This document shows, piece by piece, positions 4,215 through 47,395 of a DNA stretch of 48,884 nucleotides. Below the pieces are notes generated by a model. It worked only from the letters and a program-made list of their open reading frames with translations. It had not been told where the DNA came from and made no database searches. How positions within the stretch are numbered: the stretch's first letter is position 1; every line of letters starts with the position of its first letter. The stretch is from Desulfobacteraceae bacterium (GTDB lineage: Bacteria > Desulfobacterota > Desulfobacteria > Desulfobacterales > JAABSP01): NCBI GenBank assembly GCA_011390345.1, contig JAABSP010000043.1, forward strand, positions 1-48,884. The letters run 5' to 3'. The position numbers and the translations under genes are program-made.

Positions 4215-5663
4215 CTACGCCCTTCCCGCGATGGCCAGCCCCAGCTCCCGGAGATCGGTCTCTTGGGTCCGGACATCCTTGATCACAGCGCCGTTGAAAA
4301 AGACCATGACGCGGTCCGCCTGCGCTAAGATCTCGTCCAGCTCCGAGGAGGCAAAGACGATCGCGGCCCCTTTGGCGCAGAACCGGTGAAGATGCTCCCA
4401 GACCCAATTGGCCGATTCCACATCCAGGCCCCGGGTCGGATTTTCGAGCAGCAGCAGGGTCGGATTTTCGGAGAGAAAGGAGAGCAGCAGGCGCTGCTGA
4501 TTGCCGCCCGAGAGGCTTTCCACGGAAAGGTTCGGCTCTCCTTTGATGCGGAAGTTCGTGATCCGGCGCGCGGCGTCGGCAATGGCCCCGGGCCAGCGGA
4601 CCCAGAAGCCGCCTCCATTCTGCAGCGCGGAATGCTCCGCAAGGGTCAGCCCTGGAATCAGCCCCTCCTCCAGCCGACCCGACGGGAGAAAGTTCACCCC
4701 TTTTCGTTTGAACCCGTGATGGTTCTGCCGTTTCATGGGCTGTCCTTTGAGGTGGATCTCTCCGGAGAGGGGAGGGATGAGCCCGGCCGCGGTCCGCAAA
4801 AAGACCCCTTGGCCGCTGCCTTCGAGACCCGCAAGCCCTACTACTTCGTTTTCCCGGATGAGGACGGAGCAGCTTTTCAGGCCCGTGCGGCCGCCGCGGG
4901 CATGGATACTGGTGAAGTTCAGCACCGGCCCGCCCGGGGCTTCGGCCGATCTCGGCGGCGGCTTGGGCCGGGTGCCGAACATCAGGGTCATGAGCTGGTC
5001 AGGATCAAAGGGGCTGTCCATCTCCCCGGCCCCCTTGCCCCCTCTTAAAACCGTCACCCGGTCGCAGAGGGCCTCCACATCTTCAAGCTTGTGGGAGACG
5101 AGGATCACCGAACGGCCCTCGTCTGCGAGCTGCTTCAATGCGGAAAAGAGCGCGGCCTTCTGGGTTCCGGAGATCCCGGTGGTGGGCTCGTCCAGAATAA
5201 GGGTCCGGATGCCCTTTTCCAGAAGGCGCAGGATCTCGAGCTGCTGGCGCTCGCCGATGGTGAGAGATGCCAGGGGCGCGTCCGGATCGAGGGTGAAGCC
5301 GAAACGGCGGCAGAGATCGGTCAGCCGGATGCGCAGTGCGGTCATGTCGGAACTCGACTGACCCAGCTTGAAGTTCTCCAGCACCGAAAGGAGAGGGAAA
5401 TCGAGGGGGTCCTGATAGAGCATCCCGATCCCGAGACCGGCCGCGTGTGCCGGGCTCTCGTATTCCACTATTCCGCGGTCGATGCGGATCTCTCCGTCCG
5501 TTTTCGGGGTATAGCCGGAGAGAATCTTCATCAGGGTGCTCTTGCCGGCTCCATTCTCCCCTAACAGACCGTGGATCGATCCGGGAACCACCCTCATGGT
5601 GACATGGTCGTTGGCCCGGACAGATCCGTAATCCTTGGTGATGTTTTGCAGCGCGATCTCCAT
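4215..5663 (-). CDS. double-domain ABC importer ATPase, nucleoside/sugar type
   Basis: Cytoplasmic ATPase of 482 residues with two fused nucleotide-binding domains, as in MglA/XylG/NupO proteins. Domain 1 is complete: Walker A GENGAGKST, signature LTIGERQQLE and Walker B LILDEPTTG. Domain 2 has a degenerate Walker A (GLEGSGQGVFLR, lacking the GKS/T lysine) and Walker B LLLLENPTRGLD, with the signature LSGGNQQRLL intact. Loss of the second Walker A is usual for this family, so only one site is expected to hydrolyse ATP efficiently. The start overlaps the stop of the binding-protein gene by one base (TAATG), indicating translational coupling. Confidence 0.94.
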   Translation of the reverse strand: MEIALQNITKDYGSVRANDHVTMRVVPGSIHGLLGENGAGKSTLMKILSGYTPKTDGEIRIDRGIVEYESPAHAAGLGIGMLYQDPLDFPLLSVLENFKLGQSSSDMTALRIRLTDLCRRFGFTLDPDAPLASLTIGERQQLEILRLLEKGIRTLILDEPTTGISGTQKAALFSALKQLADEGRSVILVSHKLEDVEALCDRVTVLRGGKGAGEMDSPFDPDQLMTLMFGTRPKPPPRSAEAPGGPVLNFTSIHARGGRTGLKSCSVLIRENEVVGLAGLEGSGQGVFLRTAAGLIPPLSGEIHLKGQPMKRQNHHGFKRKGVNFLPSGRLEEGLIPGLTLAEHSALQNGGGFWVRWPGAIADAARRITNFRIKGEPNLSVESLSGGNQQRLLLSFLSENPTLLLLENPTRGLDVESANWVWEHLHRFCAKGAAIVFASSELDEILAQADRVMVFFNGAVIKDVRTQETDLRELGLAIAGRA

Positions 5664-6850
5664 TATCTTGCGCTGCTGGAGCCCTCCATCCCCTTTAGAA
5701 GCTGCTCCATGTACCAGATCTGTTTCTCCGATGCGGTCTCTCCTTCCTTGACAAAGACCGAACCATCCTGATAGAAAAGGGGGCCTTTGAAGAGCTGAAT
5801 CTTGTCGGTTCCCAGATCCACAACGAACTCCTGCAGCTTTTCCCGGGCATCATCGGAGAGGGCCTGCCCCATGTTGTACCCGATGGCGCTGGAGTCGGGA
5901 TCATTGATGTTCTCCCAGTCCGGGGCCATCCAGATCCACTGGGATTTCCAGTCTCCGGCCTTTGCATCCCTGATCATCCGGACATAGCCGGGTCCCCAGT
6001 TGTAATAGGGAACCCCGAGGCAGACTTTCTCCGCGCCCCGACAAGCGCCCTTGTAGTCGTAGGGGATGGCCCAGACCGCTTTTCCGGCCTCCCGTTTCTT
6101 CCGGGCCACCACGGTGTTCTCGGTGGTGTCGATGCCGGAGATCACCACGTCATGGCCCGTGTCGTAGAAGTTCTGGGCCACCTGGGTCGGGTCCGCGGTG
6201 ACGCCGGGGATGTTGAACCAGAAGCCGATCCATGTTACGGAGAATTTGAGATCTGCGGGATCTTTGCCCAGCACCTTCTCCCAGGCATATTTTGCGCCCA
6301 GATAGGAGGAGGCTGCAAGGCGTCTGGTCTCCTCGTTGACCAAGGGCCCCAGATAGCCGATCTTCCCGGTCTGGGTGGTCATCGCGGCCGCAAATCCGCC
6401 CATCATCTTGCCGTAGATCATCTTGGCAAAGAGGTTGGAGAGGTTGGCCGGAGCCTTTCCGGTGAGGACATCGTCTCCGGAGCAGTGGATGAAGCGGGTC
6501 TTCGGATGCATCATGGCCGCCTCCCGAATGCCGTCTTTCATGTCATCGGAGTTGGCGATGATCAGCTTTGCCCCCTTCTCGACCATGTCATCAACCAGTT
6601 GGGGGATGGTGACGCCGGGACGGTCGGCCGGGTTGACCTTGTCGATGTAGAGCATCTTGGTCTCGGGCAGGTGCTCCTCCACATATCGGCCCCCCTCATA
6701 GTGGGCCTGGCTGTATCCGTGGTCGTTGTAGGGTCCCACCAGCAGCAGGCCGAAGATGTAGGGCGAATCCGCGGCAAGAACCGCAGGAGGCGCGATTAGC
6801 GCGATCAGAAGGCTCAATCCGGCAAGACAGAAGACTAGTTTTCGGTTCAT
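5663..6850 (-). CDS. BMP-family periplasmic substrate-binding protein
   Basis: Binding protein of 395 residues for the adjacent importer. A Sec signal peptide is visible (MNRKLVFCLAGLSLLIALI, cleavage probably after VLA-A near residue 27). There is no lipobox cysteine, so it should be soluble in the periplasm rather than a lipoprotein. The mature part begins with the BMP/PnrA-family pattern (GLLLVGPYNDHGYSQAHYEG) and continues with IIANSDDM and the RFIHCSGDD segment. BMP proteins bind nucleosides or related ligands. The substrate here is inferred from the family, not shown. It is the first gene of the operon, about 80 bases downstream of a good promoter candidate. Confidence 0.92.
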   Translation of the reverse strand: MNRKLVFCLAGLSLLIALIAPPAVLAADSPYIFGLLLVGPYNDHGYSQAHYEGGRYVEEHLPETKMLYIDKVNPADRPGVTIPQLVDDMVEKGAKLIIANSDDMKDGIREAAMMHPKTRFIHCSGDDVLTGKAPANLSNLFAKMIYGKMMGGFAAAMTTQTGKIGYLGPLVNEETRRLAASSYLGAKYAWEKVLGKDPADLKFSVTWIGFWFNIPGVTADPTQVAQNFYDTGHDVVISGIDTTENTVVARKKREAGKAVWAIPYDYKGACRGAEKVCLGVPYYNWGPGYVRMIRDAKAGDWKSQWIWMAPDWENINDPDSSAIGYNMGQALSDDAREKLQEFVVDLGTDKIQLFKGPLFYQDGSVFVKEGETASEKQIWYMEQLLKGMEGSSSAR

Positions 6851-6930
6851 GGTTTTCTCCTTTTGTTATTGCCAAAGCAGTCTTTTTCACGATTTTCGAT
6901 GACGATGACGATCCATCGACCTGTCTTTCG

Positions 6931-6959
6931 GATATATATTGAAAGCCGATTCGGGTCAA
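6931..6959 (-). promoter_or_regulatory. sigma70-type promoter for the BMP importer operon
   Basis: Read on the minus strand: TTGACC (6959-6954), a 17-base spacer and TATATC (6936-6931). This matches the consensus at 5/6 and 4/6 and leaves a leader of about 75 bases to the binding-protein start. It is back to back with the plus-strand element at 6973, forming a divergent control region. A triplet-like GATGAC repeat lies in the leader. Confidence 0.5.
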
Positions 6960-6972
6960 GTTCGTTTTTCTG

Positions 6973-7001
6973 TTGACAACTTCTTAAAGATCCATTCAAA
7001 T
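6973..7001 (+). promoter_or_regulatory. sigma70-type promoter for the cNMP-binding/OadG/OadB genes
   Basis: A perfect TTGACA at 6973-6978, a 17-base spacer and TCAAAT at 6996-7001 (4/6). The -10 box is weak, so an activator may be needed. It is divergent from the importer promoter, with only 13 bases between the two -35 boxes. Confidence 0.4.
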
Positions 7002-7054
7002 TAAGGGCTATTATTTTCAGAATATCGAATTTAAGGAAGAAAGGACAGAAGAAA

Positions 7055-7510
7055 ATGGCAATCGACACGCAGACCCTAAAATCCCTCGAACTCTTTTCAG
7101 AGCTGGATTCCGAGGAACTGGAGCGGACAGCGAAGCTGATTCATCCCATGCGGGTGATGGAGGGAGAGGTGCTCGCCCTTCGGAGAGAGCCTGCGCAGAT
7201 GTTCTACATGATCATGAAGGGAAACTTCATGGTCTCCTTCAAGGAGGGGAAAGCCTTTACCCTCCATCAGAGGGGAGACATCATGGGCTGGTCCACCATC
7301 GTAACCCCCTTCAGGTACACCGGAACCATCGTCGCCCTGACCGACGGAGAGGTGCTGGCCATCAACGGGGATGAGTTCAAGGTACTCATCCAGGGAGATG
7401 CCTCCATCGGTGAAAAGATCATGAACCGGATCAATCCCATTATCGCGGAGCGGGTCCCCTATTTCTCCCGGGAGGCTCGGGAGGCTCGGAAGGAACTGCT
7501 GGAGGCATGA
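7055..7510 (+). CDS. cyclic-nucleotide-binding-domain protein without DNA-binding domain
   Basis: A 151-residue cytoplasmic protein made of one Crp-like cNMP-binding beta-barrel (residues 10-130; LELFSELDSEELERTAKLI at the start, GDIMGWSTIV in the phosphate-binding-cassette position). The C-terminus is a short charged helix and lacks a helix-turn-helix, so it is a stand-alone sensor domain rather than a transcription factor. Whether it binds cAMP, cGMP or another ligand cannot be said: the cassette has GWS instead of the classical GE-L-A-L pattern. An AAGGA ribosome site precedes the ATG. It is followed closely by the OadG-like and OadB genes and may tune that complex. Confidence 0.8.
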   Translation: MAIDTQTLKSLELFSELDSEELERTAKLIHPMRVMEGEVLALRREPAQMFYMIMKGNFMVSFKEGKAFTLHQRGDIMGWSTIVTPFRYTGTIVALTDGEVLAINGDEFKVLIQGDASIGEKIMNRINPIIAERVPYFSREAREARKELLEA

Positions 7511-7553
7511 AGCATTCAAGATTAAGGCCAAAACGGCAAGGAGGTAAATGCAT

Positions 7554-7964
7554 ATGACCGGTATGGAAGCGATATCCGCGCACAACGGCTGGGCCATCTC
7601 CGCAATCGGCGTCACCATCGTCTTCACGGGGCTGACGGTTCTCTCCCTGACCATCTCCCAGCTCCACAAGGTGCTGGCCTTTATGGAGCGGAAAAAGTCC
7701 GATTCCCAAAAAAGGGCCGAAGGTGCAAAGGAGATCGATGTCTCCGACATCATTATTCCCGGCGATATGAAGGAGACCGCTCGAGAGTACAAGATGATCA
7801 TCGATCGGATGGATGCGCCCTTTTCCCTGCCCAGACTTCTGGAACTTTCAGAGAAGTGCGGCCTCAACCGACCCTATTCCAATCTCAATGACCTGATCGG
7901 CTCCGGGCTGATCGAGCCGGACGGAGAGGGATACTACCGCTGGAAAGGGCCGGACAATCCTTGA
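7554..7964 (+). CDS. OadG-like small membrane subunit with C-terminal wHTH-like domain
   Basis: A 136-residue protein with one N-terminal membrane helix (WAISAIGVTIVFTGLTVLSL), a charged linker and a C-terminal segment of about 50 residues (LPRLLELSEKCGL ... LIGSGLIEPDGEGYYRW) that looks like a small winged-helix fold. The N-terminal half matches the gamma subunit (OadG) of Na+-translocating decarboxylases, which anchors the complex. The extra C-terminal domain is not part of the OadG proteins I know. ATG 7554 is preferred to ATG 7548 because the GGAGG at 7540-7544 is 9 rather than 3 bases away. Its position before oadB supports the assignment. Confidence 0.7.
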   Translation: MTGMEAISAHNGWAISAIGVTIVFTGLTVLSLTISQLHKVLAFMERKKSDSQKRAEGAKEIDVSDIIIPGDMKETAREYKMIIDRMDAPFSLPRLLELSEKCGLNRPYSNLNDLIGSGLIEPDGEGYYRWKGPDNP

Positions 7965-7988
7965 TAAAAAGTCTTCCGTCGGAATTTC

Positions 7989-8046
7989 GAAAGCGTCTTT
8001 TTTATCCTTTTTGCAAAGGAACTTTTACTGTTTTGAAAACGCTTTC
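7989..8046. repeat. 8-bp inverted repeat in the oadG-oadB spacer
   Basis: GAAAGCGT at 7989-7996 and its reverse complement ACGCTTTC at 8039-8046 flank an AT-rich loop of 42 bases. They could form a weak mRNA stem between the small and large membrane subunits, possibly affecting their relative expression. No T-run typical of a terminator follows. Confidence 0.35.
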
Positions 8047-8091
8047 ATCCTTTGAAAAGATTGTAAAAGAGAAAAGGAGTTAAGGGGATTT

Positions 8092-9219
8092 ATGGAAAAT
8101 ATGTTCATGGATTTCATTTCCAATACCGGTTTTGCCATGGCCGACTACCGCCATATCATCATGATCATTATCGGGATCACCTTTATCTATCTGGGGATCG
8201 CAAAGCATTACGAGCCGTTGCTGCTGATCCCCATCGGGTTCGGCATCCTGATGGGCAACATCCCGGTCTTCAAGGGGCTGGGGCTTGGGATCTACGAGGA
8301 TAACAGCGTTCTCCACTACCTCTATTTCGGCGTCACCTCGGGTGTCTATCCGCCGCTGATCTTTCTTGGGATCGGAGCGATGACCGATTTTTCGACCATG
8401 CTGGCCAGGCCCCTGCTGATGCTGCTGGGCGCGGCCGCGCAGATGGGGATCTTTCTGACCTTTCTCGGCGCGCTCGCGTTGGGGTTTGCCCCCAATGAGG
8501 CGGCCGCGATCGGTATCATCGGCGGCGCGGACGGGCCCACCGCGATCTTTCTGACCGCGAAGCTCGCGCCCATGCTCATCGGGCCTATCGCAGTGGCGGC
8601 CTACTCCTACATGGCGCTGGTTCCGGTGATTCAGCCGCCCATCATGCGGCTGCTCACTTCCCGGCAGGAGCGGCTCATCCGGATGGAGGAGCCGAGAGAG
8701 GTCTCCAAGCTGGAGAAGATCATCTTCCCGATTATCGGCTTTCTGCTCTGCTGCTTTCTGGCGCCTGCGGCCCTTCCGCTTCTGGGAATGCTCTTTTTCG
8801 GGAATCTGCTTAAGGAGTGTGTGGTTGCGGAACGGCTGGCGCAGGCCGCGCGGACCTCAATTATCGACTCGGTAACGATTCTTCTGGGGCTGACGGTCGG
8901 CGCCAGCACACAGGCCGATGTCTTTCTGACGCCGCAGTCGGTGGGAATCTTCGTTCTCGGTGCGGCCTCCTTCTGTGTGGCAACGGCTTCAGGGTTGCTC
9001 TTTGCCAAGATCATGAACATGTTTTTGAAGGTCAAGATCAATCCGCTGCTGGGTGCGGCCGGGGTTTCGGCTGTGCCGGATTCCGCGCGGGTGGTCCAGA
9101 TGGTGGGGCAGGAGGAAGATCCCACGAACTTTTTGCTGATGCACGCGATGGCGCCCAATATCTCCGGGGTTATCGGCTCTGCCATCGGCGCGGGGGTGCT
9201 CTGGAGCTTTATGAGCTGA
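8092..9219 (+). CDS. oadB: Na+-translocating decarboxylase beta subunit
   Basis: A 375-residue integral membrane protein of the OadB/GcdB/MmdB family. This subunit decarboxylates carboxybiotin and couples it to Na+ export. Many membrane helices are visible along with the family's key motif GGADGPTAIF (Asp essential for Na+ and carboxybiotin handling) and the C-terminal GAAGVSAVP...ARVVQ region with NFLLMHAMAPN. Usual length is about 375-430, so it is complete. An AAGGAG site precedes the ATG. The carboxyltransferase (alpha) and biotin-carrier subunits are absent from the window, so substrate (oxaloacetate, methylmalonyl-CoA, glutaconyl-CoA) cannot be decided. A terminator hairpin follows about 110 bases downstream. 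Confidence 0.92.
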   Translation: MENMFMDFISNTGFAMADYRHIIMIIIGITFIYLGIAKHYEPLLLIPIGFGILMGNIPVFKGLGLGIYEDNSVLHYLYFGVTSGVYPPLIFLGIGAMTDFSTMLARPLLMLLGAAAQMGIFLTFLGALALGFAPNEAAAIGIIGGADGPTAIFLTAKLAPMLIGPIAVAAYSYMALVPVIQPPIMRLLTSRQERLIRMEEPREVSKLEKIIFPIIGFLLCCFLAPAALPLLGMLFFGNLLKECVVAERLAQAARTSIIDSVTILLGLTVGASTQADVFLTPQSVGIFVLGAASFCVATASGLLFAKIMNMFLKVKINPLLGAAGVSAVPDSARVVQMVGQEEDPTNFLLMHAMAPNISGVIGSAIGAGVLWSFMS

Positions 9220-9332: not shown

Positions 9333-9380
9333 AAAAACCGGGAGCAGCTTTTTTTCAAAAAGGGGTTGCTTCCGGTTTTT
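9333..9380. terminator. bidirectional intrinsic terminator
   Basis: Arms 9333-9348 and 9365-9380 pair over 16 positions (14 Watson-Crick, two G-U) with a 16-base loop. The stem begins in A5 and ends in T5, so both transcripts see a stem followed by a U-run. It sits between the convergent oadB gene and the coiled-coil gene and should terminate both. Confidence 0.8.
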
Positions 9381-9430: not shown

Positions 9431-12421
9431 TCAACCTTTGGCCGGTTTCTTCCGCTTCTGAAAATAGGCTTCGATCCGGGCGATCCGTTTTTCCAGATCC
9501 GGTACCAGATTCGATACCAGATCCGATATTTGGGGGTCGGGTTCTTCGGGCTCGCTGGGGGCTTCCAGAATCTCCATCGCTTTTTCCAGCCGGCTTTCCA
9601 GGGTCGAAAGCTTTGCGGTCTGCTCCTTTTGAGCTTCGATCCGGGTCTTCTGGATCTCTTGGAGCTTGTTGACATGCTTTACGATCCGGTTTACGAATGT
9701 CTTCATTTCGGTTATCCGGGCGTCATTGGCCGCAAGGGATGGTTCGAGCCGTTTCCGGACCAGTTCGTTTCTTGATTTTTCGATCATATCCCCTGCCGTA
9801 TCCTGAACCATTTTCTGGATGGGGCCTTCGATCTTCTCCTGAATCAGGCTTTCCATCCGCTCTGAGGAACCGGCTTCCCGCTGTTCAATCTGATGTTCAA
9901 TCTGCTGCTCGAACTGTTCGATCCGGTTTCGGGCCTGTGCCATCCTCTCGTCGATTTCCCCGAGCCGGTTTTGTGCGGTTCCGAGTTCGGCCGATAGACT
10001 GCCGATCTTCTCCTCCAGCTCACTTTTTACCGCGTCTCCTGCGCCCTGTGCCTGTTTTGCGGCGTGCGCCACCACCTTTTTGACCTGGTTCGACAGCGCG
10101 GTCATCCTCTCGTTCAGTCGGCCGTTCAGGGCCGCGTCCGAATCTTGGAGCCTTTTCTCCCAATCATCAGCCTGTTCGACCATCCGCTTTTCCAGCGGTG
10201 CAATCCTCTTTTCAATGGAACCATCCAGCTCCGACAGCCGGTTGTCGATCTTTTCGGCCAGCAGGCCGCCCAGGGTGTCCATCTCCGCTTCTTTCGATTT
10301 CAGATCCTCAGAAAGGGAGTGGATGGCCTTCTTCTCCGATTCGAAGCCCTCCATCACCTCGGTTCGGGTGCTGTCAAGAAACTGCCGGGCCTCCTCTTCA
10401 AAGGCTTCCATCCGCCGGTACTCGTCGGCCAGTTCCCGGTTGAGGGTTTCGATATCCTCCTTTTCCGATGAGAGGGAGGAGAGAAGCCCGTCGATTCGGA
10501 TCTTCTCCGCATCGAAGCGGGAGAAGATCCGCTCCTTCATCTCCTCCTCGACGGTCCTGATCCGGCCTTCGATGTTTTCTTTTTCTTCGGAAAACCGTTC
10601 GGAAATCTCCTTCCGGGTCTTCTCCTCAAATCGATGCTGCTGCTCTGAGATTGCTTCGTCTCTCCGGTCGATAGCGTCTGCAACGCTGTTTCTGAAGAGC
10701 AGGAGGTTGGACCGCAGATGGTCCAGCTCCATCTTTGAATCGGAAAAGAGAGCGCTCTGGCTGGCGACCATATCTTCGCTTTTACGCTCGATCTCTTCGG
10801 CAATGCTGTTTTTGAAGATCCGGAGATTGGATTCCAGATGATCCATTTGGGTTTTCGAATCGGAAATCAGGTCTGAAAACCGTTCGATTTCCTTTCCGAT
10901 TCGGCCTTCTGCCGATGCCGCGGCCTCATCGGCCCTTTTTCGATTCTCTTGCAGGAAGGCTTCAAAGCCTTTGATCTCGGTTTCGATATGATCCCGCAGG
11001 GCTTGAACATCCGCTCCCCTGGTTTCAAGCCTTTTCAGGGTCTCTTGGATACCCCCTTTCTGCTGCTCGAATCGGGTTTCGATATCCGCATCTTTTTCGG
11101 AGAACCGCGATTCAAGCTGCTCCTTCTCGGCTGAAAAACGGGCTTCGTATTCCTGAAACCGCTCCGCCAGCTCGCGGTCAATCCGTCGGCGCTCTTCTGC
11201 AAACCGATCGGAGAACCCCTGCCGGGTCTCATCCCGGAATTGGCCTTCCTCCTTTCGGATCTCTTCGATCTCCCGGGCAAATGTTTCGGAAGTGTTTGTC
11301 CGGAACAATTTCAGCTCCTCCGTAAGACGATTCAGCTCCGTTTTCGACGCCTCCCGAAGCTTTTCGACCGCTTCGGCCTTCTCCTCTCCCAACCGGCGCA
11401 GGGCTTCGATACGGGATTCGCCCTCCTGAAACCGCTTTTCCAGCCCATCGGCCTCTGCTGCAAAACGATCTGAAAACTCCTTTTGTACTCGGCTTTCGAA
11501 GTCGGCCTGTTTGCCTTGAATTCCGTTCGAAGTCTCGTCGATCCTGCGATCCATGTCGGCTGCAACGCTGTTTTTGAAAAGGGAAAGCCCCTCTTCGAGC
11601 TGCCCGAATGCGGTTTTTTGCTCTTCAAAGAGTCCTTTGAAGCGTTTTCGATCCTCCGCCAGATCGTTTTGCAGGGCCCGAGCCTGTTCCGCTTCGGCCC
11701 GCATCCGCTTCAGCTCGACTTCGATCCTTTCGGTCTGCTCTTTCAATCCGTCATCAATGGCCTGAACCTTCTCCTCGAAAAGGGCCTCGATATATTCGGC
11801 CTCCTCGAAGAATTGTTGGGAAAGGTTCTCCCGGAGCCTCTTCTCTTCTTCGGATTGACGGCTTGTCAGGGCATCGACCGTCTCCTGCCGCGCATCATTG
11901 AAACCGCGGATCGCCGCATCGGTTTTCGATTCGATCTCGGATCGGATCTGCTGTGTCAGGTTCTCGGCAGACTCGTTTTGTAACCGCTCGATCTCCCTTC
12001 TCAGGCGGGAGAACTCCTCGTCCGTGCCCTCCATGAAGGCATTCAGCCGGGCGATCTCCTCCTCGATAAGATACCGTTCCTCCTCAAGATCCCGGTTCTC
12101 TCTCCGGAGCCGCTCCAAGATCTGCGAGATATCGGTCTGCCGGTCGGTAAATTCCGTCAGCAGCCGGTTCAGCTCGCCGGCAGAGCGGTCCCGGGTCTCA
12201 TCCAGTCGCCTGAGCCCTTGGGTGTAGATCGATTCCATCTCCTTGTTCCGGTCCAAAGAATCGCTCAGTTGAACTTCATGCTCTTCGATCCGCCGGTGTG
12301 TTTCCTGTACTTTTTCTCTCACCTGGCGGATCAGTTCCACCGTGTCGAAGAGTTCCTCGATCTTTTGACAGGACTGGGAGATCTTTTCCAATGCAGCATC
12401 AGGAGACGATATCCGGCTCAA
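9431..12421 (-). CDS. giant coiled-coil protein, operon partner of the RecQ-like protein
   Basis: A protein of about 996 residues that is almost entirely charged alpha-helical heptads (Glu/Arg/Lys/Leu/Ile) with few prolines or glycines, so a long rod is expected. No membrane segment, signal peptide, ATPase motif or enzymatic motif is visible. The short proline-containing tail (EAPSEPEEPDP) precedes a last helix ending PAKG. Internal repeats include a 40-residue tandem pair and a dispersed S-D/E-R-F-x-x-E motif (SDRFAAE, SDRFAEE, SERFSEE). The TTG at 12421 was chosen as start because it overlaps the upstream stop (TTGA) and GGAGG lies 10 bases before it. A longer frame from 12568 would overlap the upstream gene by 150 bases. 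Function unknown. Translational coupling to the RecQ-like gene suggests a joint role. Confidence 0.75.
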   Translation of the reverse strand: MSRISSPDAALEKISQSCQKIEELFDTVELIRQVREKVQETHRRIEEHEVQLSDSLDRNKEMESIYTQGLRRLDETRDRSAGELNRLLTEFTDRQTDISQILERLRRENRDLEEERYLIEEEIARLNAFMEGTDEEFSRLRREIERLQNESAENLTQQIRSEIESKTDAAIRGFNDARQETVDALTSRQSEEEKRLRENLSQQFFEEAEYIEALFEEKVQAIDDGLKEQTERIEVELKRMRAEAEQARALQNDLAEDRKRFKGLFEEQKTAFGQLEEGLSLFKNSVAADMDRRIDETSNGIQGKQADFESRVQKEFSDRFAAEADGLEKRFQEGESRIEALRRLGEEKAEAVEKLREASKTELNRLTEELKLFRTNTSETFAREIEEIRKEEGQFRDETRQGFSDRFAEERRRIDRELAERFQEYEARFSAEKEQLESRFSEKDADIETRFEQQKGGIQETLKRLETRGADVQALRDHIETEIKGFEAFLQENRKRADEAAASAEGRIGKEIERFSDLISDSKTQMDHLESNLRIFKNSIAEEIERKSEDMVASQSALFSDSKMELDHLRSNLLLFRNSVADAIDRRDEAISEQQHRFEEKTRKEISERFSEEKENIEGRIRTVEEEMKERIFSRFDAEKIRIDGLLSSLSSEKEDIETLNRELADEYRRMEAFEEEARQFLDSTRTEVMEGFESEKKAIHSLSEDLKSKEAEMDTLGGLLAEKIDNRLSELDGSIEKRIAPLEKRMVEQADDWEKRLQDSDAALNGRLNERMTALSNQVKKVVAHAAKQAQGAGDAVKSELEEKIGSLSAELGTAQNRLGEIDERMAQARNRIEQFEQQIEHQIEQREAGSSERMESLIQEKIEGPIQKMVQDTAGDMIEKSRNELVRKRLEPSLAANDARITEMKTFVNRIVKHVNKLQEIQKTRIEAQKEQTAKLSTLESRLEKAMEILEAPSEPEEPDPQISDLVSNLVPDLEKRIARIEAYFQKRKKPAKG
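10625..10864 (-). repeat. 40-codon tandem duplication within the coiled-coil gene
   Basis: Two consecutive 40-codon units encode closely related segments: SDSKTQMDHLESNLRIFKNS and then SDSKMELDHLRSNLLLFRNS, each continuing A-(E/D)-x-I-(E/D)-R. More diverged copies of the L-x-x-L-x-LF-(K/R)-NS element occur earlier in the protein (about residues 275 and 366). Growth of the rod by unit duplication is the simple reading. Confidence 0.75.
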
Positions 12422-14961
12422 TGGGACAGTTCCTCCAAGGCTTTGTGTAAACGGTTTCGGATCGGTTTGAAGTCGATCTCTGCCAGTTGATCGGCAAAGC
12501 AGCGGACATGCAGCCATTCCAGACGGGAGGGCTCCAGATTGAGTTCTGCTCCGGCCTGACAGAGCCACTCCTCTCCCTTTGGCGATGCCGCGGGGCCGTA
12601 CTCGTCGTCCAGGATGTCGAAGAGGGCAGGCTTTGTTTCATCATCTGCCGCTTCATAGAATCGTTTCATGGCCGATATCTCCATCCGGCTCCGGTTTGCG
12701 GTCCGGATCAGATCGATTGCATGTTTTTTCGACTCTGGGGCCGGGGAGAGGGCGTGGGCCAGATAGAGCGCCCACAAATCTTCCGGGGCTTCGGCAAGAT
12801 ATTGGTACGGACTGCCCCTCTGATGGCCGGCAAGATCGGCGCATATCCGGTAATAGAGATTTTCCGGATCATCGGAGAAACTCTCCTTCAGCCTCTCTGC
12901 CGCGTCGAAATCAAATGATCCGGGAGAAGCTGCCGGCAACTCCCGAAGGATTTTTTCCTTTTCATCAGCGTTTGCGTCTTCAAGCGGTTCGGGCATCCTC
13001 TCTTCAAAGTGCAGATCCGGGCGGCAGAGATCGCACCTTCCGCACCGCCAGGCTTCATCTACTACCCGGAAGTGCTTTAGAAGGGTCGCAGTTCGACAGT
13101 CCTGTGCCCGGATGAAGTTCATCAGCGTTCCGAGCTTCCAGCGGGCAGTGGCCCTCAGACGTCGGCACAGTGGCTCGAAGATCACCGGCAGGCAATCGCA
13201 TAGGGTCTCTATGAGAAGGGTACATTGGGGGTAGCATTGGATCTGCCGGGATTCGATGGCCGTTCCCAGCGCGGTTTCGATTTTTTGGCCGTACTGCTCC
13301 CGAAGCCGCGCTATCTCGCCGAATCTTCCGGTCAGTCGTTCCCGGGGAAAGAAGGAATCGCCGATTCCTGTGGAATCGATGCTCTCTCTCAGGTATTTCC
13401 AGAGACTTCCCACAAGGGCGTTTCGATCCTGGGAGGGGCGGAATCCCTTGATTTCAAAACAAATTTCAGCTTCGATCTCCCGGGCCCGAAAGTTTTCCAG
13501 CAATCCCAGCCCCTGCAGATGGTAGAGGACGATTCCGGTTCTTTCGGCTTCTGATGCCGGGGAGGAGAATCGCGCGGGGGTATCCCCCCGCTCATGGGAT
13601 CTGAAGATCGCATCTGCTGCTGTAAGGGCAGCCGATGTCATCTCCACAGGGCCGGGAATGGTTCGGTCGATCTGCAGATGCATTTTTCCGTAGTCGCACA
13701 GTTCGGCTTTTCCGTAGAGGCAGCCGGATTCGACGCAGGGGGGGATCTCAGCGCCCTGGTTCTCCAAATCCTTCCGGCATCCCTCGGCCGGAAGATCGGC
13801 CACCTGAACGCAATGGGCTTCCTCGCCTGCGGTTACGGCCCAAAGGGTTCTGCGGGCCCATCTCTCCAGATCGCCCCAGAGGGAGGTGTGAAGTGCAAAA
13901 CGGGCTTTTCCGCCATCATCTCCGCTATCGGCCGCAGCATATTTGGGGTCGTAGTTGGTCCGAAACATCAGCTCCGGCATCCGATTTCCCCCCTTACCTT
14001 TGTCACCTTCAAAAGGGCGGTCAAACGCGTTTATGCTGCCGGACTCAACCCGAAGCGGGTAGGGATATCGAGGAAAGAAGATCGGCGCTTTCAATGGCCC
14101 TGCCCGGTCCATCCCCTGTCCGGTCTTCCCGTGAATGTCGCTGTAGATCAGCCGGAAAGATTTCTCTTGGGCCTCCAGTACGGTTCCCCAGCCGTTGTCG
14201 TTATATGCGCCGTCCGCATGGTCGGCCCCCACGGCTTTAGGGATCTCCTCCCAGATCAGGCCTTCGAACGCGTTCTCCTTTTCCTGCAGGCCATCCTTTC
14301 TGACCACCCCGAAACTGAGGCTCTCCGGCAGCCGAATCGGGGAGGATATCTCCTCGGGCCCTTGCAGATCGAGCCGATCGGAAATATCTTTCAGGACGAG
14401 CCGGTCCCGGGTGCGGGTCAGCCCCACAAATACAAGCTTCCGGTGCTTTCGGCGGATCTCTTCCAAAACCGGCAGGGCAGCCGCATCAATGGCCGAAAAC
14501 GCACTCCCCCACGGAGAGAGGCGTTCAATATGATCCGCGATCACCATTCCCGGGCCGAGCTTTTCCAGAATGGGCAGAACCGTCTCTTTCCGGTTTTCAA
14601 GGGCCAGGGACTTGAAGGAGAGAAAGGAGATTTTCAAAGAGCCGCTCCGGATACGGGCCAGAAAGGTTGTCTGTTCGATGATCTTCAAGGCTGCGTTTTC
14701 GACTCTGGTCCACTGACATCGGTCTGTGATGATAATGATTTCTTTGGAGATGGCGCCTGCCGGCAGGATCAAAGAGAGCTTTTCCCGGCTCTCCATCCGG
14801 ACCAGCAGTCGCCCGCCCTTTGGAACTCTCAGGGGATGAGGATGTGCAGGGGATGGTTTTACCGTAATGAAATGGTGGGAAAATGTCTGGGACACCGGCT
14901 GTATGGAAAGCCGTTCGAGCCATTGTTCATCCGGTGGGATGCGTCTTATCTCCAGCAGCAA
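12418..14961 (-). CDS. RecQ-family pseudohelicase with zinc-binding domain
   Basis: An 847-residue protein whose layout follows RecQ through both RecA-like domains and the zinc subdomain, with catalytic residues lost. Compared with E. coli RecQ from memory: the Walker A region reads LILPAGAISKE (no GKS/T). The DEAH...QWG stretch is IADHIERLSPWG (141-152), with DEAH replaced. The ALTAT motif is GLTRTRD (180-186). The motif V/VI region is ARFALHTSLWGDLERWARR (about 353-371), with GRAGRDG gone. The zinc subdomain is retained: KLGTLMNFIRAQDCRTATLL then C640-GR-C643-DL-C646, with C622 as fourth ligand. A second cysteine group lies at 395-422. About 200 unassigned residues follow. TTG start with AGGAG six bases upstream. 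ATP hydrolysis is not expected. The role may be structural or DNA-binding together with the coiled-coil protein. Confidence 0.7.
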   Translation of the reverse strand: MLLEIRRIPPDEQWLERLSIQPVSQTFSHHFITVKPSPAHPHPLRVPKGGRLLVRMESREKLSLILPAGAISKEIIIITDRCQWTRVENAALKIIEQTTFLARIRSGSLKISFLSFKSLALENRKETVLPILEKLGPGMVIADHIERLSPWGSAFSAIDAAALPVLEEIRRKHRKLVFVGLTRTRDRLVLKDISDRLDLQGPEEISSPIRLPESLSFGVVRKDGLQEKENAFEGLIWEEIPKAVGADHADGAYNDNGWGTVLEAQEKSFRLIYSDIHGKTGQGMDRAGPLKAPIFFPRYPYPLRVESGSINAFDRPFEGDKGKGGNRMPELMFRTNYDPKYAAADSGDDGGKARFALHTSLWGDLERWARRTLWAVTAGEEAHCVQVADLPAEGCRKDLENQGAEIPPCVESGCLYGKAELCDYGKMHLQIDRTIPGPVEMTSAALTAADAIFRSHERGDTPARFSSPASEAERTGIVLYHLQGLGLLENFRAREIEAEICFEIKGFRPSQDRNALVGSLWKYLRESIDSTGIGDSFFPRERLTGRFGEIARLREQYGQKIETALGTAIESRQIQCYPQCTLLIETLCDCLPVIFEPLCRRLRATARWKLGTLMNFIRAQDCRTATLLKHFRVVDEAWRCGRCDLCRPDLHFEERMPEPLEDANADEKEKILRELPAASPGSFDFDAAERLKESFSDDPENLYYRICADLAGHQRGSPYQYLAEAPEDLWALYLAHALSPAPESKKHAIDLIRTANRSRMEISAMKRFYEAADDETKPALFDILDDEYGPAASPKGEEWLCQAGAELNLEPSRLEWLHVRCFADQLAEIDFKPIRNRLHKALEELSH

Positions 14962-46218: not shown

Positions 46219-46440
46219 GTAATCTTCCTCCTTTCCGGTTGGAAGTTGTCATCCGCCCTTCATCTCTATCATAACGAAGATCTGCAAAAAAATACATGGA
46301 AACCTGTAATTCCCACCTGAAAAGCATTAAAGCATGGCGGCAATACCGCTCACCTCATCATCGGCTGCAAAATCCTTCACGTCCCTTGGATCATTTATGT
46401 CCTTTTTTTTCAATATTTTCTTCGCGATCTGGCAATTATG

Positions 46441-46449
46441 TGGTATAAG
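46441..46449 (+). promoter_or_regulatory. extended -10 element before the methyltransferase gene
   Basis: TGGTATAAG fits an extended -10 (TGnTATAAT, 5/6 in the hexamer) 26 bases before the chosen ATG. No convincing -35 box is seen. The rest of the 46219-46474 spacer holds nothing I can name. Confidence 0.3.
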
Positions 46450-46474
46450 AGGGAAAACGGACCAGGAGCAGATT

Positions 46475-47395
46475 ATGGACCAGAGAACAGACCACCGCAG
46501 ACGAACCACCAGAACAGCCACCAGCCCCTTCGGAACCCCGGGGCGGATCAACCACAATTCCGAGAGGTTCTACAACAGCCGTCTCTACGAGGGAATGCGG
46601 CCCTGCAAGTCTGTCTGCTATGAGGAGAATCCCGTCCCCGAAGATCACCTCAACCGCATCTTCTGCCGGTCCAGCGAAACCATGGCCGAGCTGCCCGACA
46701 ACAGCGTCCACCTCATGATCACCTCTCCCCCCTACAATGTCTCCAAGGATTATGACGAAGATCTCGATCTTCCGGAATACCTGAACCTCCTCGACCGGAT
46801 CTGGGCCGAGACCTATCGGGTGCTGGTCCCCGGCGGCAGAGCCTGCATCAATGTGGCCAATCTGGGCCGCAAGCCCTACATCCCGCTGCACGCGCACATC
46901 ATCTGCGGCATGACCCAGATCGGTTTCCTCATGCGGGGGGAGATCATCTGGAACAAGGCCGCAAGCGCAAGCCCCTCAACTGCCTGGGGAAGCTGGCTCT
47001 CCGCGGCCAACCCGGTGTTGAGGGACGTTCACGAGTATATCCTGATCTTCTCCAAAAAGAGTTTTTCAAGAAAAAGAGCTGAAAAGAAGAACACCATCGG
47101 CCGGGAGGAATTTCTGCAATGGACCAAAAGCGTCTGGAATTTCCCCGCGGTCTCCGCAAGACAGATCGGCCATCCGGCCCCCTTTCCCGAAGAGTTGCCC
47201 CACCGTCTGATTCAGCTCTATTCCTTTGAGGGCGATGTGGTGATGGACCCCTTCTGCGGAAGCGGCACAACCTGCCTGTCGGCCGCGCGAAACGGACGCT
47301 GCTATGTGGGGTATGAGATCGAGCCGGATTATGTCAATTTGGCGCAGGACCGGATCGAGAGCCTCTGCAGGGATCTGGAGCCGGTTTCGGTATAG
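46475..47395 (+). CDS. solitary beta-class DNA methyltransferase (N4-cytosine or N6-adenine)
   Basis: A 306-residue SAM-dependent DNA methyltransferase. Catalytic motif IV TSPPY (83-87) precedes the SAM-binding motif I DPFCGSGTT (258-266), the beta-class order. SPPY is common in N4-cytosine but also N6-adenine enzymes, so the base cannot be fixed. The start at 46475 (AGGAG 7 bases upstream) is chosen over an open frame to 46334, whose first 47 residues are low-complexity and Phe/Ser-rich. No restriction endonuclease follows directly, so it may be an orphan regulatory or phage-defence methyltransferase. The next plus-strand neighbour is absent and the downstream gene is convergent. Confidence 0.86.
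   Translation: MDQRTDHRRRTTRTATSPFGTPGRINHNSERFYNSRLYEGMRPCKSVCYEENPVPEDHLNRIFCRSSETMAELPDNSVHLMITSPPYNVSKDYDEDLDLPEYLNLLDRIWAETYRVLVPGGRACINVANLGRKPYIPLHAHIICGMTQIGFLMRGEIIWNKAASASPSTAWGSWLSAANPVLRDVHEYILIFSKKSFSRKRAEKKNTIGREEFLQWTKSVWNFPAVSARQIGHPAPFPEELPHRLIQLYSFEGDVVMDPFCGSGTTCLSAARNGRCYVGYEIEPDYVNLAQDRIESLCRDLEPVSV

Follow-up and report, generated by a model that had tools for sequence, protein, structure and literature searches.

What is encoded by a RecQ-like gene from which the motor motifs have gone, and what might it do beside the gene of a long coiled-coil rod? This question is raised by two overlapping minus-strand genes in contig JAABSP010000043.1 of a Desulfobacteraceae bacterium (assembly GCA_011390345.1; order Desulfobacterales), the whole 48,884 nucleotides of which were analysed (the window). 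An initial annotation had described them as a catalytically dead RecQ-like helicase translationally coupled to a rod, with a conceivable nucleoid, repair or phage-defence role; its observation of the two-gene pair was confirmed and its interpretation partly supported. The reading that we prefer, with a probability of about one half, is that the pair constitutes a motor-less DNA-binding scaffold on a long tether, domesticated from a nuclease-helicase plus coiled-coil module.

RecQ ancestry and motif loss in the window protein

The pair comprises the following parts (lengths in amino acids, aa; pLDDT, predicted local distance difference test).

12418..14961, minus strand: RecQ-derived pseudohelicase, 847 aa, TTG start (open reading frame and translation, RecQ profiles and structures, motif table)
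14296..14814, minus strand: remnant of RecA-like domain 1 (RecA1, residues ~50-222), motifs I, Ia, II and III eroded (alignment with intact relatives)
13786..14295, minus strand: remnant of RecA-like domain 2 (RecA2, residues ~223-392), core deleted, motifs IV-VI gone or unrecognisable (anchor-to-anchor length and low pLDDT)
13678..13779, minus strand: family-specific motif C395-x13-C409-x4-C414-x7-C422, then H428 (invariance in the motif table)
13372..13650, minus strand: winged-helix-like segment (residues ~438-530), suggested by the helix/strand order of the model only
13012..13221, minus strand: RecQ zinc subdomain, a long helix plus C622-x17-C640-x2-C643-x2-C646 (Pfam RecQ_Zn_bind, family profile against the PDB, cysteine invariance)
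12421..12984, minus strand: C-terminal helical domain (residues ~660-847; conservation among dead forms, all-helical in the model)
12418..12421, minus strand: TTGA overlap of the stop TGA and the start TTG, with GGAGG a few bases upstream (sequence)
9431..12421, minus strand: coiled-coil rod, 996 aa, TTG start (translation, heptad periodicity and composition)
12158..12421, minus strand: N-terminal rod head (residues 1-88), homologous to the heads of intact-class partners (hhalign)

The lengths and TTG starts given to both genes in the initial annotation are borne out by the reading frames, by the ribosome-binding sequences (read directly, AGGAGA precedes the first TTG, that of the pseudohelicase) and by the homologues, whose alignments reach near the first residues and which start with TTG, GTG or ATG. 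The TTGA overlap of stop and start was likewise found in the sequence.

The window protein matched the NCBIfam RecQ model (1.1e-10) and RecQ chains of the PDB (6e-5). Its match to Pfam RecQ_Zn_bind (3.2e-4, 21.8 bits) lies below the 25-bit cut-off, the homologue from genome G026 reaching 29.3 bits, and the family profile matched PDB RecQ weakly over the zinc stretch (E = 0.0027). When the predicted structure (mean pLDDT 69.8) was searched with Foldseek, RecQ-family chains were found in all 50 matches listed. RecQ also topped the structural comparison of this model (Z 11.8 over 319-330 residues, root-mean-square deviation 4.4-5.0) and that of the model of an intact relative (Z 24.9). DEAH-box RNA helicases score Z 10-11 against the window model, within about one unit of RecQ and in effect tied with it, so that the structural comparison alone does not single out RecQ; its ancestry is singled out by the Foldseek matches listed together with the sequence evidence (profiles and PDB chains). 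The similarity to RecQ claimed over both RecA-like domains held for the RecA1 remnant and failed for RecA2, the core of which is mostly deleted (residues 278-351, pLDDT below 50).

The replacement of the Walker A, DEAH, ALTAT and GRAGRDG motifs was confirmed in a motif table of 15 intact and 10 motor-dead rows. According to this table, the window protein has lost Walker A, the Glu and His of the DEAH box, motif III past its LT, and motifs V and VI. The position aligned with Walker A reads SREK, in a P-loop stretch without GK(S/T); the DEAH box has become ADHIE, ALTATA has become GLTRTRD, the counterpart of motif VI (GRAGRDG) is ARRTLWAVTAG, and RecA2 is shortened. These data indicate that the protein descends from RecQ and that the defining motifs of a RecQ helicase are absent; from the motifs, no ATPase activity is predicted for it.

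Intact and motor-dead members of the family

A protein search of 58 related genomes gave four positives (the window's own included), and a profile search of 291 genomes of the order gave 12. With a C-terminal profile the family was detected in 13 of 389 genomes of the order, in an identical 13 of 389 at the level of the class, and in 2 of 395 at that of the phylum (the window's own genome and G517). The 13 genomes of the order comprise ten with motor-dead forms, two with forms that are intact where readable, and one unclassified; G329 was left without a class because it is readable only in its last 281 residues. The dead class, all within the order, consists of G000 (the window), G001, G003, G026, G062, G078, G118, G146, G167 and G183. 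Contig ends cut off part of the G146 and G183 copies; in another genome, G216, the copy can be read only from motif II onwards.

A pattern-seeded scan of the genomes of 84,980 species returned 17 loci, five of them apparently from genomes already found, and plasmid records contained nine family copies, in Thermus, Deinococcus and Thermomicrobium. In relatives from six other phyla every readable helicase motif is kept, mostly together with an N-terminal DUF559/MTES_1575 nuclease domain. Homologues with intact motifs were thus found outside the dead clade and not inside it, and homologous pairs occur both in other genomes of the order and, with intact motifs, in other phyla. A phage origin was rejected: 50,697 phage records contained no match, and none of 29 pattern matches in viral contigs was confirmed. 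The RecQ-coiled-coil pair of the Deinococcus wulumuqiensis plasmid pDrdI (L072:2561-11465) is directly preceded, on its upstream side, by another large helicase gene, of DEAD/DEAH type.

The intact rows are highly uniform, with TGxGKS in 13 of 13 readable rows and DEAHCxSEWGHDF, LTATA, TK(G/V)FGMGIDK and YQExGRAGR in all 15. In the dead rows, by comparison, the Walker Lys persists in one of the eight with a residue at this position (only G118) and the DEAH Glu in two of nine readable rows (only G062 and G183), the motif II Asp is retained in all nine readable rows, and most have a degraded motif VI. Every one of the ten has a shortened RecA2, measuring 64-119 aa between its flanking anchors as against 144-195 aa in the intact rows. 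Since this shortening is universal and the surviving RecA1 motifs vary, the RecA2 deletion probably came first, with the ATP site eroding later and separately. Eight full-length intact proteins were profiled with Pfam, and seven of them had N-terminal matches to the restriction-type nuclease families DUF559 and MTES_1575 (DUF559 above its cut-off each time); the Thermomicrobium protein matched neither. Dead proteins with a readable start begin so near the RecA1 remnant that there is no room for a nuclease domain. One of the intact proteins (L047:2959-7338) has an RNase_T exonuclease domain in addition to its DUF559/MTES_1575 nuclease match and RecQ-type helicase.

The two cysteine sets have been retained in both classes. 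The zinc-subdomain cysteines C622, C640, C643 and C646, listed in the initial annotation as kept, proved invariant across the first four homologues aligned and are present in 9/9 readable dead and 15/15 intact rows. A second set, which the annotation had missed, is equally constant: C395, C409, C414 and C422 are invariant in 10/10 dead and 15/15 intact rows, and H428 is found in 10/10 and 13/15, respectively. This C-x13-C-x4-C-x7-C motif could hold an Fe-S cluster or zinc. It lies within about 200 residues by which the window protein, between motif VI and the zinc cysteines, departs from the usual RecQ layout.

Conservation flips from the motor half in the intact forms to the C-terminal half in the dead ones. 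Mean pairwise identity among intact rows was 0.556 in RecA1, 0.490 in RecA2, 0.338 from the cysteine motif to the zinc subdomain, and 0.290 at the C-terminus; among dead rows the corresponding values were 0.297, 0.282 (22 of 45 pairs being long enough), 0.344 and 0.355, the C-terminal helical domain being the most conserved region. Three dead-class proteins showed 29-32% identity to that of the window. A maximum-likelihood tree built from 23 C-terminal halves, with midpoint rooting for display only, placed the nine dead rows and the 14 intact ones on opposite sides of a branch supported at 100/99; a single origin of the dead forms in the order appears well supported.

The coiled-coil partner accompanies both classes. 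The 996-aa protein has a heptad periodicity of z 10.6 above shuffles, 4.7% Pro plus Gly and 41% Asp, Glu, Lys or Arg, and all 22 rods tested exceeded their shuffles in periodicity by 3.5-11.6 standard deviations. When searched for internal repeats, the window rod did not match itself at E 1e-5, and its most prominent lag (203) reached 3.0 standard deviations. Heads of dead- and intact-class rods are homologous (hhalign probability 93.8-95.4%), in contrast to non-head segments (0.4-3.3%, except for 51% in one that overlaps the head). A coiled-coil gene is directly downstream in eight of the nine dead loci with a readable downstream side, the exception being G183, where the helicase is truncated and a DnaJ-like open reading frame on the opposite strand takes the place of the rod; in G001 the contig ends. 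The same holds for 17 of the 18 non-dead loci read (G329 and the frame-broken L053 counted), the exception being a short copy on Thermus pTF24b, with no coiled-coil gene annotated and a transposase following; the L043 locus stops at the contig edge. Since intact relatives in other phyla also have such a neighbour, the pairing predates the loss of the motor. The association of a motif-less RecQ with a rod noted in the initial annotation is thus conserved, but its origin does not coincide with the inactivation of the helicase.

Rods of the two classes do not overlap in length, with 239-479 aa in 13 of the intact class and 493-1205 aa in eight of the dead (Mann-Whitney p 1e-5). When L053 and G329, whose helicases are not verified as intact, were dropped, the intact-class range became 239-406 aa (n=11; p 3e-5); both p values are uncorrected for kinship, the dead rods all coming from one clade. 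In the Thermomicrobium partner (L071:10400-11041), a long hydrophobic C-terminal stretch resembling a membrane helix was noticed by eye.

The window pair fits the nuclease-RecQ plus coiled-coil module in its cysteine motif, RecQ zinc subdomain, C-terminal domain and directly downstream coiled-coil gene. From sequence comparison, the following course of descent is well supported: (i) the pair derives from a two-gene module of a RecQ-type helicase and an overlapping or abutting coiled-coil gene, (ii) the ancestral helicase mostly carried an N-terminal restriction-type nuclease domain, (iii) one lineage of the order lacks the nuclease domain and most of RecA2, and its RecA1 has eroded ATP-site motifs, and (iv) this lineage still has the cysteine motif, the zinc subdomain and the C-terminal domain, together with a partner that has become longer.

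Possible function of the pair

In the scaffold reading, the pseudohelicase would no longer move on DNA and would act as a passive DNA- or junction-binding platform, using its zinc/winged-helix half. The platform would dock to the head of the long, probably dimeric rod, which would tether or space whatever the platform binds, and housekeeping unwinding would fall to a separate ordinary RecQ. In this way a defence-like nuclease-helicase would have been domesticated to serve as a scaffold of the chromosome, and one bacterial group may have given a structural role to a machine of defence-like type. A bolder version is tentative: a nuclease-RecQ-coiled-coil immunity module would have been domesticated once in the order, discarding its motor while the partner rod grew to as many as 1205 residues, with rod length replacing motor activity. 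The graded series from intact to motor-dead forms of one two-gene machine makes the non-motor roles of such a helicase testable via homologues.

Several points weigh against the scaffold reading. Few genomes of the order carry the family (13 of 389), and the rod lengths and motif counts describe one clade, not independent events. As the tree has midpoint rooting only, the direction of change, from intact to dead, depends on the match of the intact motifs to RecQ in general. A shortened GRGKS survives in G118 and an almost complete motif VI in G026, and two of the ten dead copies appear damaged, possibly through assembly error: G167 (L031:7632-9953) has frame breaks at both ends, and G183 (L035/L036) is truncated, with the rod absent. 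The ratio of nonsynonymous to synonymous substitution rates (dN/dS) comes from a single genome pair (G001 and G003), with a value of 0.32 at dS 0.77 over 787 codons and 0.29-0.37 by region, which suggests that the whole protein is constrained, loosely, in this pair; ilvE of the same genomes gave 0.086, well below 0.32. Finally, we infer the scaffold function, with the DNA binding, protein-protein contact and expression of the pair that it entails, from sequence.

The dead pair might instead still be an antiphage module, the pseudohelicase sensing phage DNA or replication intermediates and the rod signalling or sequestering, all without a motor; we consider this unlikely. The family is patchily distributed, and of 16 proteins chosen beside intact copies eight matched PADLOC models, strongly for GajA, GajB and PDC-S23 (G517), HerA (L043), RmrA (L041) and a pAgo-type model at 4e-22 (L044), and weakly for two others. 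Among chosen neighbours of dead copies, on the other hand, 13 of 14 had no match at 1e-5, the exception being REase_II beside G078. Since these neighbours were picked by eye, one intact-copy batch for its defence-like look, the contrast is a suggestive lead and not a test. Pfam found no nuclease or other effector domain in the proteins of the window, G026 and G118, and the gene order beside the pair is common to different genera. The phage-defence role first suggested for the pair therefore fits the intact relatives better than the dead forms, as far as hand-picked neighbours can tell. The results point to a widely scattered nuclease-helicase-coiled-coil module that is directly testable for phage defence; the 2023 PADLOC library recognises it mainly through RecQ-core matches.

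It is rather improbable that the pair regulates the ordinary RecQ by competing with it for the same DNA structures or partners. An ordinary RecQ above the family cut-off is encoded elsewhere in 10 of 12 genomes, nine of these with a dead form (nine of the ten dead genomes; that of the window's genome is at G000:C141), and the pseudohelicase has retained its zinc half. Against this, G078 has a dead form without a RecQ above the cut-off.

Motif loss and the two damaged copies would suit a decaying pseudogene that is by chance still open in the window, which is very unlikely given frames of about 800 aa or more in seven of the ten dead genomes, eight invariant cysteines, and the dN/dS of 0.32 in one pair, which argues against a pseudogene. 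ATP hydrolysis through an unusual site, to which the persistent motif II Asp and the GRGKS of G118 might point, is hardly credible with RecA2 shortened in every dead row, motif VI mostly degraded and no GK(S/T) in the P-loop stretch of the window protein.

Known systems and surroundings of the locus

The window protein resembles RecQ helicases in its RecA1 remnant, four-cysteine zinc subdomain and top structural matches, and differs from them in lacking the ATPase motifs and the RecA2 core and in having a long rod partner. Its best PADLOC matches were DpdF models, and relatives matched DpdF and PsyrT models; the best-matching stretches lie mostly in the shared RecQ core, and the rod is unlike the partner genes of these systems. 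DpdF (7-deazaguanine defence) is defined by other dpd genes alongside, none of which was present among the neighbours profiled (nine window proteins with Pfam and two with PADLOC, a part of the window genes). PsyrTA is defined by the antitoxin partner PsyrA beside the helicase, and PsyrA was not among the PADLOC matches of the adjacent partner, a coiled-coil rod.

The rod had weak profile matches to SMC/Rad50, ZorA and other coiled-coil proteins. An SMC- or Zorya-type rod was rejected, the best matches being restricted to coiled-coil stretches. No SMC/Rad50 ATPase head was detected in the rod, the SMC/Rad50 models matching internal coiled coil, all far below cut-off; nor was the MotA/ExbB membrane domain of ZorA matched, every ZorA match beginning at profile position 202 at the least (no separate membrane-helix prediction was run).

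PriA of Deinococcus radiodurans appears, by analogy, to be the closest experimental precedent that we found; it belongs to the PriA and not the RecQ family, and we know of no rod partner for it. RecC of RecBCD is an SF1 protein that works in complex with active motors, unlike the window protein. D. radiodurans PriA is reported to have lost ATPase and unwinding activities and still to bind DNA (PMC4504706); helicase motifs have been lost in one lineage in both cases, with DNA binding retained there and proposed here. In RecC, inactivated nuclease/helicase-like domains are reported to be reused as structural parts of a DNA machine (PMC1185551). No description of a RecQ-coiled-coil module or a RecQ pseudohelicase was found in the portion of the open-access literature covered (mostly without preprints), and RecQ is absent from the main text of PMC12839542.

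Two further features adjoin the pair.

9335..9378, no strand assigned: 20-pair hairpin with a T-rich tail between convergent genes, terminator-like (terminator scan)
5663..9219, both strands: genes for Bmp (minus strand) and cNMP-binding, OAD_gamma and OAD_beta (plus strand) proteins (Pfam; tblastn to L006)

The hairpin corresponds to the terminator said to close the pair. The scan found 13 sites in all, against 10.1 in shuffles, the stems of the other 12 having at most eight pairs; a scan for sigma-70 promoters found none, with 2.2 expected in shuffles. The pair faces the OAD beta, OAD gamma and cNMP-binding genes, beyond which lies that of the Bmp-type protein. The same neighbours, in the same order and on the same strands, were found in G003 (L006), with tblastn identities of 90% (OAD beta), 52% (OAD gamma), 70% (cNMP-binding) and 77% (Bmp), and the G118 locus contains a relative of OAD beta (56%). 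Five window neighbours were looked for in the G026 locus without a match; ilvE- and UGPase-like genes (named by eye) lie near the pair in both G003 and G026. An intact nuclease-RecQ-coiled-coil pair elsewhere (L069:1009-10991) is situated near a Gabija-like GajA/GajB pair. On the contig of the window itself, distant from the pair, an N6_N4_Mtase DNA methylase gene was identified at 46334-47395.

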